Assembly: GCF_001457795.1 (NCBI RefSeq)
Contig: NZ_LN898210.1
Location: forward strand, 124,001-188,000
Reading direction: 5' to 3'
Length of the DNA: 64,000 nucleotides
From: Olsenella massiliensis
GTDB lineage: Bacteria; Actinomycetota; Coriobacteriia; Coriobacteriales; Atopobiaceae
Shown piece after piece: positions 18,170 to 44,271 of the stretch (its first letter is position 1; every line of letters begins with the position of its first letter). The notes beneath the pieces were generated by a model that was given only the letters and a program-made list of their open reading frames with translations, made no database searches and was not told the DNA's origin. A program made the position numbers and the translations under genes.

Positions 18170-19219
18170 TCAGTACACCATGCCCATGGCCTCGCGGACC
18201 TCGCCGAGCGTCCGGTCGGCGATGGCGTTGGCGCGACGGTTGCCGTCGCGCAGCACGTCCTTCACGAGGTCGAGGTCGTCCTCATAACGACGCCTCCTCT
18301 CGCGTATGGGCGCGAGATAGTCGTTGACGACCTGGGTGACGTAGCGCTTGAGCTGGCCCGCCCCGCCCATGCCGATCTCCTCGGCGATCTCTTCGGGCTT
18401 GCGGCCCGTGCAGAGGGACGCCGTCGTGAGCAGCGCCGAGACGCCGGGGCGACCTTCGGGGTCAAAGCTGATGTTGCGCTCGGAGTCGGTCCTGGACTTC
18501 TTGATGAGCTTGGCCGTCTCGGCCTCGCTCATGCTCAGCGCGATGGCGTTGCCGTAGCTCTTGCTCATCTTGCGGCCGTCAAGGCCGGGAATGAGGGGCG
18601 TTGCGGTCAGAAGCCCCGTGACGTCGGGAAACACCCTGCCGTAGCGCTCGTTGAAACGCCGGGCGATCTTGGACGTGATCTCGATGTGGGGCAGCTGGTC
18701 GCGGCCCACGGGCACGATGTTGCCCTTGCAGAAGAGGATGTCACAGGCCTGGTGGACGGGGTAGGTCAGCAAAAGGCCGGTGAGCGCATGGCCCGAGGCG
18801 GCCTGCTCGGCCTTGACGGTGGGGTTGCGTTCCATCTCGGCCTCGGTGACGAGCGAGAGAAATGGCAGCATGAGCTGGTTGGCCGCCGGAACGGCGGAAT
18901 GCGTGAAGATCATGGTCCTGCGGGGGTCGATGCCGCAGGCAAGGTAGTCCATGACCATGCCGTACACGTTGTCGGCGATGTTGTCGGTGCTGTCACGGTC
19001 GGTGATCACCTGGTAGTCGGCGATGATCACGTTGGTGCTGACGCCCAGGTCCTGCAGGCGCACGCGCTCCTTGATCGTCCCGAAGTAATGTCCCAGATGA
19101 AGCCTGCCGGTGGGGCGGTCGCCCGTCAGCATGCGATAGGCCCCGGGATTGGTGAGCAGGTCTCGTTGAATCTGGTCTGAGCGCTTGAGCGCCGCCTCGT
19201 AGCTGCCCTCGTTTGGCAT
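18170..19219 (-). CDS. trpS: Tryptophanyl-tRNA synthetase
   Basis: Class I aminoacyl-tRNA synthetase charging tRNA-Trp. The 349-residue protein has the HIGH-type signature HLGHYFG at residues 41-47 and a perfect KMSKS at 217-221, with GLDGR just before it. The C-terminal domain shows AEEIG and ends NAIADRTLGEVREAMGMVY, as usual for TrpRS. ATG 19219 has GGAG upstream. It follows the YgjP-like gene on the same strand with 58 bases between. A degraded second copy of its leader and start codon occurs near 22692-22755. Confidence 0.97.
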   Translation of the reverse strand: MPNEGSYEAALKRSDQIQRDLLTNPGAYRMLTGDRPTGRLHLGHYFGTIKERVRLQDLGVSTNVIIADYQVITDRDSTDNIADNVYGMVMDYLACGIDPRRTMIFTHSAVPAANQLMLPFLSLVTEAEMERNPTVKAEQAASGHALTGLLLTYPVHQACDILFCKGNIVPVGRDQLPHIEITSKIARRFNERYGRVFPDVTGLLTATPLIPGLDGRKMSKSYGNAIALSMSEAETAKLIKKSRTDSERNISFDPEGRPGVSALLTTASLCTGRKPEEIAEEIGMGGAGQLKRYVTQVVNDYLAPIRERRRRYEDDLDLVKDVLRDGNRRANAIADRTLGEVREAMGMVY

Positions 19220-27595: not shown

Positions 27596-27672
27596 TGGTG
27601 ACCCCAGTGGGGTTCGAACCCACGACCTTTCGCTCCGGAGGCGAACGCTCTGATCCACTGAGCTATGGGGCC
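27596..27672 (-). tRNA. tRNA-Arg (anticodon CCG)
   Basis: Read on the minus strand, the acceptor stem GGCCCCA pairs with TGGGGTC. The anticodon stem TTCGC/GCGAA closes a seven-base loop CTCCGGA with anticodon CCG. The T arm contains GTTCGAACC, and CCA is encoded. A perfect TATAAT at 27690-27685, 12 bases upstream of the mature 5' end, is the probable -10 element. It reads CGG codons. Confidence 0.97.
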
Positions 27673-43461: not shown

Positions 43462-43508
43462 TATGCTAGGCACAGGATAGGGAACCAGAGGTGAGAGGGG
43501 AGGTCGCC
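43462..43508 (+). promoter_or_regulatory. Putative promoter and ribosome site of the tryptophan leader
   Basis: TATGCT near 43462 could be a -10 element with no good -35. The GAGAGGGGAGG run at 43493-43503 is a very strong ribosome site six bases before the leader-peptide ATG, which supports translation of the short frame. Confidence 0.5.
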
Positions 43509-43580
43509 ATGCTCGCGAGCGCGTCCAAGGTCATGCGTGGGGCATGGTGGCACGACAGTCTTCCTCCTGGTCGACCGTAG
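43509..43580 (+). CDS. Tryptophan leader peptide
   Basis: A 23-codon open frame, MLASASKVMRGAWWHDSL then PPGRP and TAG. Two consecutive Trp codons stand at 43545-43550; Trp is otherwise rare, and the frame has a strong GAGGGGAGG ribosome site. Its stop codon lies directly after the antiterminator strand at 43569-43576. A ribosome finishing the peptide would therefore cover that strand, while one stalled on Trp codons would leave it free. It is the sensor of the attenuator. Confidence 0.8.
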   Translation: MLASASKVMRGAWWHDSLPPGRP

Positions 43581-43639
43581 GTCGAGTCCCTCGTCCGTGC
43601 GACGCCAAGGGCTCCCGGGTTGACCGGGGGCCCTTTTTT
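43569..43639 (+). promoter_or_regulatory. Tryptophan attenuator: antiterminator and terminator
   Basis: GGTCGACC (43569-43576) is complementary over 8 bp, with one G-U pair, to GGTTGACC (43618-43625), giving the antiterminator. The competing terminator pairs GGGCTCCCGG (43609-43618) with CCGGGGGCCC (43624-43633) around a 5-base loop, followed by T6 (43634-43639). The two structures share bases 43618-43625, so they exclude each other. Stalling at the Trp codons favours the antiterminator; completing the peptide favours termination before the transporter operon. Confidence 0.78.
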
Positions 43640-43710: not shown

Positions 43711-44271
43711 ATGTCAGACGTCATTGAACCCCGCACCGTCACCACCACCTCCCAGGACAAGTCAGGCACGCTCGACGTCGCCGCCCTCGTGCTCGTCGCC
43801 ATCCTGCTCGCCGCCGGATTCGTGCTCAACCTGACGGTGGGCAAGGCCCTCGGCGCCACGGGCATCCAGCCTGAGTTCGTCATCGCCGCCTACTGCCTCG
43901 CCATCCTCATCATCCGGCCCACGGTGGGGCAGACGATCGTGATTGCCCTGCTCGCCGCCACCGTCATCCAGATCACGACCTCCGCACCCGGCGTGGAGTA
44001 CCTGTGCGACGTGCCCGCCTCCCTCATCATCCTGCTCGCCTCGCGCCTGACGGGGCGCGGCGGGGCCGGCAAGGTCGTCATCCCCTTCGTGGGGTCGTTT
44101 CTCACCACGGCGGTGTCGGGCATGATCTTTGCCGGCGTCGTCACCCTCGTCATCCGTGCGGTGCCCGTCTCCTTCGTCGCGATGATGCCCATCGTGTTCG
44201 GCACCGCCGTCGCCAACGCGATCATCGTCGCCCTCCTCTATCTGCCCCTCAAGAAGGCTGCCAAGCGCTAA
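43711..44271 (+). CDS. ECF transporter S component, TrpP-like (predicted tryptophan uptake)
   Basis: A 186-residue membrane protein with about five hydrophobic segments, in size and pattern an ECF substrate-binding (S) subunit. Segments GIQPEFVIAAYCLAILI, ITTSAPGVEYLCDVPASL and a Lys-rich C-terminus recall the Bacillus TrpP family (G-x-x-P-[DE]...TS-x-PGG...). AAGGAGAG precedes ATG 43711. The genes for the energising module follow directly, and the attenuator upstream has tandem Trp codons. Both point to tryptophan, or a Trp-related compound, as substrate; this is inference. Confidence 0.75.
   Translation: MSDVIEPRTVTTTSQDKSGTLDVAALVLVAILLAAGFVLNLTVGKALGATGIQPEFVIAAYCLAILIIRPTVGQTIVIALLAATVIQITTSAPGVEYLCDVPASLIILLASRLTGRGGAGKVVIPFVGSFLTTAVSGMIFAGVVTLVIRAVPVSFVAMMPIVFGTAVANAIIVALLYLPLKKAAKR

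Follow-up and report, generated by a model that had tools for sequence, protein, structure and literature searches.

What controls the ECF transporter operon of the Olsenella massiliensis stretch presented here (64 kb in total, called the window), and what does this transporter import? An earlier sequence-only reading had proposed a tryptophan (Trp) attenuator ahead of a Trp importer. Our analysis leads to the same main reading: positions 43497-43639 form a ribosome-mediated Trp attenuator of a tryptophan ECF importer operon with the gene order S-AA'-T, with a probability of about 0.87. Within this reading, we infer the Trp response, the kinetic choice between helices, and Trp as the substrate from comparative and folding data. 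The operon most likely imports tryptophan when Trp is short. The mechanism class, classical amino-acid attenuation, is known; the client is unusual.

Architecture of the leader region

The features of the locus are collected in Table 1. The ribosome site, the 23-codon ORF with adjacent Trp codons, the stop codon at 43578, and the 10-bp terminator with its T6 run were all found by direct reading precisely where the sequence-only reading had placed them.

Table 1 Features of the Trp leader and the ECF operon in the window.
Feature	Position	Strand	Basis
Candidate -10 box TATGCT	43462..43467	+	Sequence, tentative; no convincing -35
Shine-Dalgarno GGGGAGG of leader ORF	43497..43503	+	Sequence
Leader peptide ORF, 23 codons plus TAG, MLASASKVMRGAWWHDSLPPGRP; ATG at 43509, TAG at 43578-43580	43509..43580	+	Sequence (signals by direct reading); WWW of relatives in register
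Two Trp codons TGG TGG, regulatory	43545..43550	+	Sequence and relatives
P1 5' arm GCACG, hairpin starting at last Trp codon	43550..43554	+	Pairs with 43596-43600; covariation
Antiterminator 5' strand, core GGTCGACC at 43569-43576	43564..43576	+	13-bp pairing with 43618-43630; covariation
P1 3' arm CGTGC	43596..43600	+	Pairs with 43550-43554; covariation
Intrinsic terminator, 10-bp stem (arms 43609-43618 and 43624-43633), 5-nt loop, T6 at 43634-43639	43609..43639	+	Sequence; covariation
Antiterminator 3' strand, being terminator loop and part of 3' arm; GGTTGACC at 43618-43625	43618..43630	+	Pairing, covariation
ECF S component, 186 aa, distant TrpP relative	43711..44271	+	Profile matches, predicted fold
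Fused ECF ATPases A-A', 594 aa	44350..46134	+	TIGR04520 and TIGR04521 over cut-off
ECF T component, 248 aa	46134..46880	+	PF02361 CbiQ, 95.8 bits

The proposed antiterminator pairing of GGTCGACC with GGTTGACC exists. Its strict exclusivity with the terminator fails for this 8-bp core alone, because the core takes only two bases per side at the top of the terminator stem. The extended 13-bp pairing also occupies seven bases of the terminator 3' arm. This duplex, calculated at -24.7 kcal/mol, was the strongest among the 28 duplexes listed. The antiterminator targets the terminator loop and then the 3' arm; the 5' arm is not its main target. The third helix, P1, was missing from the sequence-only reading, and its hairpin is conserved in the relatives.

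Most relatives carry three Trp codons in a row, and GCA (43542-43544) occupies the position of the first TGG of these three. The GCA-TGG-TGG of the window is in the same register as the WWW of the relatives, which indicates that the first regulatory codon was changed from Trp to Ala. When the window was scanned for ORFs of 8-40 codons with adjacent Trp codons (WW) and a T5 run no more than 100 nt past the stop, the combination of ATG, ribosome-site-like motif, WW ORF, and T5 was found once on the plus strand, at the present locus, and was absent from the minus strand of the 64 kb. The trpS gene is in the window as had been claimed (complement, tblastn match 18173-19204), and the 500 bases preceding it hold no WW leader.

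Conservation, covariation and predicted switching

A homologue of the S protein was found in 69 of the 140 family genomes. The 500 bases upstream of the first S gene were scanned for WW ORFs of 6-60 codons, and a WW leader was found in 64 of 70 family loci (64 of the 69 testable, as L030 has no upstream sequence). Applied to the reverse strand, the scan gave 3/70, and mononucleotide shuffles gave 3.8%. The five family loci without a WW leader in the scanned 500 bases are L002, L003, L066, L069, and L070. The S genes of L069 and L070 diverge most (about 40% identity). Upstream of them is a suitably placed short ORF, MASKR...EWRL(W/R)S, that contains one or two Trp codons, and a T-run terminator is not obvious there.

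A second set of named loci was drawn from Olsenella, Atopobium, Collinsella, Enorma, Slackia isoflavoniconvertens, Gardnerella, and others. It overlaps with the family set, some records being the same genomes. The WW leader was found in 77 of these 80 loci (77 of 78 testable); L103 and L142 lie at contig ends, and the third miss is L071 of O. profusa. The motif TGGTGGTGG was found upstream in 140 of 150 loci; the window, which has WW, was included manually, giving 141. The distance from the Trp codons to the stop is exactly 36 nt in 80 of the 90 distinct leaders, the exceptions being L022, L025, and eight Gardnerella-type leaders. The window keeps both the reading frame and the 36-nt spacing.

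The attenuator reading is supported by covariation among the relatives, the check that the sequence-only reading had proposed; the Trp codons, the codon-to-stop distance, and the alternative pairings are conserved and covarying there. Helices were counted over an alignment (A2) of the 90 distinct leaders, with structures derived from the same sequences. For the terminator, 96.0% of the cells were paired, the covariation score was 0.369 against at most 0.229 in slid controls, and two-sided changes occurred in 10/10 pairs. For the antiterminator, 85.8% of the cells were paired and the covariation was 0.195 against 0.092 in the best slid control; its outermost pair (columns 38-101) was unpaired in 43 of 88 sequences. 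For P1, which connects the third Trp codon to the stretch past the stop, the values were 76.6% and 0.216 against 0.113 when slid. The covariation score and the percentage paired were reached by 0/500 shuffles in all three helices, a lenient test for related sequences. Two of the five shuffle measures were weak for the antiterminator (reached by 18/500 and 78/500) and for P1 (161/500 and 261/500), the 78/500 and 261/500 belonging to the counts of further pair types.

The clearest compensation is seen between lineages: GGTCGACTC goes with GGGTTGACC in L004 and L010, and GTTTACTC goes with GGGTAAAC in Gardnerella (L080). The Gardnerella rows are apparently one base out of register in A2. When the antiterminator strands were exchanged, Gardnerella segments paired with Gardnerella terminators at a block mean of -15.6 kcal/mol and with Coriobacteriia terminators at -7.9; Coriobacteriia segments gave -15.2 with terminators of their own kind and -10.4 with those of Gardnerella. 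Over all 90 leaders, the averages were -15.8 for own, -13.9 for swapped, and -11.5 for shuffled duplexes; L022 was weak (-8.4). The same exchange for P1 was mixed. Gardnerella arms gave -12.4 within the group and -8.4 and -8.6 across groups, and Collinsella 5' arms paired more strongly with 3' arms from Atopobiaceae (-15.6) than with those from Collinsella (-13.7).

The attenuator is proposed to sense charged tRNA-Trp and to control the S-AA'-T operon in the following way. When Trp is plentiful, the ribosome would reach the stop codon and cover the antiterminator 5' strand, and the terminator would form. When charged tRNA-Trp is scarce, the ribosome would halt at the Trp codons and cover the start of P1. 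The freed antiterminator 5' strand would then pair with the emerging terminator loop and afterwards with the 3' arm, and RNA polymerase would enter the transporter genes.

The energetics of this switch were calculated for all 90 leaders. With a stalled ribosome and a finished terminator, the terminator wins at equilibrium in 83 leaders, and the antiterminator is favored in 7, the window not among them. Since equilibrium favors the terminator, the switch would have to be kinetic. When the RNA was lengthened stepwise and the ribosome was kept at the Trp codons, the antiterminator led in 90/90 leaders through 4 nt of the 3' arm; at 7 nt it led in 69, 72, and 80 of 90 for ribosome footprints of 9, 12, and 15 nt downstream, this range being an assumption. 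In the window, the predicted lead persists to 8 nt. A ribosome placed at the stop codon gave a mean terminator probability of 0.50 for 4 nt and 0.88 for 5 nt of emerged arm, the antiterminator being absent by construction as its strand was masked. In the control without a ribosome, the antiterminator led in 70/90 leaders at 4 nt, 25 at 6 nt, and 13 at 8 nt; owing to this lead, early leakiness is predicted for RNA without a ribosome. The switch may thus be kinetic, as other attenuators are, and we infer this from modelled folding.

The transporter genes and their likely substrate

The AA' gene lies downstream of the S gene in 61/61 and the T gene in 60/61 of the named loci with enough downstream DNA. 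The best named match of the window S protein is that of Olsenella profusa (L071). As a single sequence, the S protein gave nothing useful against Pfam and NCBIfam and no match in a PDB search; a profile gave two weak rows (E 0.48 and 0.94). Its AlphaFold model has a pLDDT of 91.1. Foldseek with this model returned no row with E < 0.001, and its first ten rows are S components. By VIA-align, which settled the fold, ECF-type S components fill the 21 best rows, among them metal transporters' S components of the CbiM/NikM type, with a best row of Z 15.9 (rmsd 2.8 A, 160 residues aligned); some rows have unspecific titles and were taken by us to be S components. The protein shows the six-helix S fold and is encoded beside ECF ATPases and a T component, as an ECF S component is.

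At E up to 1, 31 of the 39 aligned S proteins match the Pfam TrpP family (PF17099), the best at 1.4e-13. Of eight single S proteins, four exceed the gathering score of 27.2 bits (31.3, 31.1, 51.4, and 28.7) and four are below it (25.7, 22.9 for the near relative L003, 16.1, and 16.8). The window S protein has no match to PF17099 at E up to 1, and the search of its own genome with PF17099 gave nothing. The protein misses the gathering score and is therefore called TrpP-like, not TrpP.

The genome itself is 97% complete, and it has no match to TrpA (PF00290), TrpC (PF00218), the trpB2 type (TIGR01415), or the NSS family (PF00209). TIGR01415 also catches TrpB1 adjoining TrpA in relatives, at about 170 bits. 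A genome without matches for Trp synthesis should need Trp import. A TrpA match of at least 150 bits was found in 13 of the 69 family genomes with the S gene and in 32 of the 71 without it. Shared ancestry confounds this comparison, and doubtful matches (85-109 bits) were not counted. Ten of the 13 S-bearing genomes with TrpA also carry the leader.

The Trp-importer reading is supported by the distant TrpP homology, the S-component fold, and the missing Trp-synthesis genes. The operon is likely a Trp importer because a Trp attenuator lies ahead of it in the window and in most of the operon-bearing relatives examined. A likely substrate is thus given, from regulation rather than homology alone, to an S family only partly reached by Pfam. 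The reading predicts a response to Trp shortage in Actinomycetota of the gut, mouth, and vagina (Collinsella, Olsenella, Atopobium, Gardnerella).

Further support came from other genes with such a switch. A covariance model (R1) was built from the leader and used to search other genomes. At E up to 0.01, it matched 81 of the 140 genomes of the family and 155 of the 297 genomes of the order, with a weak tail that holds false matches. At E up to 0.001, 19 of 296 phylum-drawn genomes match, four of them outside the order and weakly (E 3.3e-4 to 5.3e-4). In its own genome, R1 finds the present locus alone at E up to 0.01. Four weak matches were rejected as false: L182, L185, and L190 are tRNA-like stretches (tRNA-Pro by eye) followed directly by a terminator, and L184 is a coding stretch. 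The model is a route to further Trp-acquisition genes, and it led to trpB2 and an NSS symporter.

Twenty chosen places were read, and WW or WWW leaders were found ahead of trpB2-type genes in 12 loci, which had been found via R1 and were hence selected for the presence of a leader. Six of these 12 genes match TIGR01415 (L186 also PF00291), and the other six were assigned by likeness, by eye. Among 19 further trpB2 genes, a hand-picked sample that is not random and includes some known R1 matches, a WW leader with a terminator was found in 9 by eye (11 by script); the WW ORFs of L203 and L204 were judged spurious by eye. A WW or WWW leader, a terminator, and an antiterminator-like pairing precede trpB2 (TIGR01415-type tryptophan synthase beta) in the Coriobacteriia loci L181, L183, L186-L189, L193, L194, L196-L198, L200, L202, L207, L209-L211, L213, L215, L216, and L218. 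In 21/21 trpB2 leaders, the segment past the Trp codons pairs with the terminator loop. The duplex energies were -18.0 kcal/mol for own pairs, -14.8 as the mean of all combinations among these leaders, -14.9 with trpP-type terminators, and -12.5 for shuffled sequences. The loop sequences are diverse, such as GGATTATCG with CGGTAATCC and GGGTCTC with GAGATCC.

Leaders also precede further S genes in L192, L195 (WAW), and L199. In L191 (G191:C1:1547500-1553100, reverse strand), an NSS symporter (PF00209) has its own WWW attenuator and is followed by a second WWW attenuator and then the ECF S, AA', and T genes. In L193 and L194 (genomes G144 and G169), the leader is followed by trpB2 and then by an S gene that continues in frame into the ECF ATPase, an S-A fusion.

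Two different S genes stand close together behind one Trp attenuator in 26 of the 80 named loci, for example L072, L075, and L106. Such tandem S components may differ in substrate.

These arrangements bear on the main competing reading, in which the attenuator is a genuine Trp switch and the cargo is a precursor or relative of Trp, such as indole, kynurenine, anthranilate, or another aromatic compound. The paired S genes, with their possibly different substrates, would fit it, as would the trpB2 genes, whose product would use indole, under the same type of switch in relatives, and the trpB2 and S genes behind one leader in G144 and G169. Against it, the S family is related to TrpP, and the window genome has no TrpB or TrpB2 match, so that indole or anthranilate should be useless there. 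We consider this reading unlikely.

TrpP-like S genes with a WWW attenuator were also found in Gardnerella and other Bifidobacteriaceae (L080, L082, L083, L085, and L087-L092). In the S tree, the window groups with O. profusa and G043, and the four sampled Gardnerella S proteins fall inside Atopobiaceae beside L022 and L005 with strong support, on long branches that the tree program flagged as unsafe. This placement and the shared WWW leader suggest a joint transfer of transporter and attenuator. A wider picture can be drawn for Coriobacteriia, for which we would give somewhat less than even odds. Paralogous leader-peptide attenuators would form one Trp-acquisition regulon that joins an NSS symporter, TrpB2 as the enzyme of indole salvage, and the ECF importer, which frequently has a pair of S components; importer and attenuator would have moved jointly between Atopobiaceae and Gardnerella; and tandem S components would take different Trp-related compounds via one AA'T.

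Leaderless relatives and comparison with known attenuators

The expectation that relatives keep the Trp codons holds in most of the relatives examined that carry the operon and fails in the two nearest S-bearing relatives, G038 (O. profusa) and G039. At these loci (L002 and L003; L071 is the same place as L003), the leader is absent and the terminator is kept. In both genomes, 20 bases separate the -10-like box from the terminator, against 149 in the window; the promoter-like stretch reads CTATGCATAGG in O. profusa and CTATGCTAGG in the window. The intergenic region is 228 bases long in G038 against 348 in the window, and the leader ORF and the antiterminator strand are gone in both relatives. 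The loss in O. profusa was read by eye and measured, and a global alignment puts the gaps elsewhere. G038 and G039 both have trpA and trpC; the window genome and G041 keep the leader and show neither gene. Leader loss in the trpA/trpC-bearing genomes fits a relaxed need, though two lineages prove nothing. The 4 kb taken as the region ahead of the G039 trp operon holds only WW ORFs without context.

The leaderless state raises the reading that the window switch is itself degenerate: two Trp codons would be too few, the terminator would lower expression constitutively, and the locus would be heading to the state of O. profusa. The lost first Trp codon and the sister species with a terminator and no leader point in this direction, together with the R1 score of the window (54 bits), the lowest but one among family matches with E below 1e-7. 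However, the antiterminator of the window is the strongest of the 28 listed, its frame and spacing are intact, and two adjacent Trp codons are sufficient in the E. coli trp leader. We regard degeneration as improbable, slightly more so than a different cargo.

A Trp T-box, a TRAP site, or another RNA switch in place of a translated leader might come to mind, since TRAP controls Bacillus trpP. This is very improbable: covariance models at the gathering score place no T-box or other Rfam family at the leader, the sole match in the window being a tRNA (27599-27672), and the conserved sequence is an ORF with a ribosome site, Trp codons, and a mostly fixed distance to the stop. A chance WW ORF beside an ordinary terminator, which about 4% of such regions could supply, is refuted by the conservation and covariation in Atopobiaceae, Coriobacteriaceae, an Eggerthellaceae species, and Gardnerella, and its probability is negligible.

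Corynebacterium and Streptomyces have classical attenuators of the trp operon, and some Streptomyces also have one ahead of trpS, as described in PMC1262725. The present leader resembles those described there in its leader peptide with double or triple UGG, its attenuator structure, and its GC-rich terminator with a U run. The attenuators in that text precede biosynthesis genes or trpS, whereas here an ECF importer follows, in a genome without Trp synthesis; the pairing of the antiterminator with the terminator loop and 3' arm is a further difference. The words "Transporter", "Atopobium", and "Collinsella" are absent from that main text (PMC1262725). TrpP is counted among the B. subtilis ECF S proteins in PMC11487621. 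A histidine-regulation study touching Coriobacteriales (PMC9413887) showed no Trp attenuator among the matches listed from it. Among the titles listed from the open-access literature, none deals with a Trp attenuator ahead of an ECF transporter or with one from Coriobacteriia. On that basis, the Trp-importer client, the distribution across Coriobacteriia, and the connection with trpB2 have apparently not been described before.

Two further systems are comparable. Bacillus TrpP works with a shared EcfAA'T and is itself under TRAP control. The present S proteins are distantly homologous to it (PF17099) and share ECF-type import; unlike in Bacillus, AA' and T genes of their own adjoin the S gene, and the leader is sensed by the ribosome. 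The E. coli tnaC leader lies ahead of tnaA-tnaB, senses free Trp as an inducer, and acts via Rho. Both tnaC and the present leader encode a peptide that controls an operon with a Trp permease, or a predicted one here; in contrast to tnaC, scarce charged tRNA-Trp should induce the present operon, via an intrinsic terminator.
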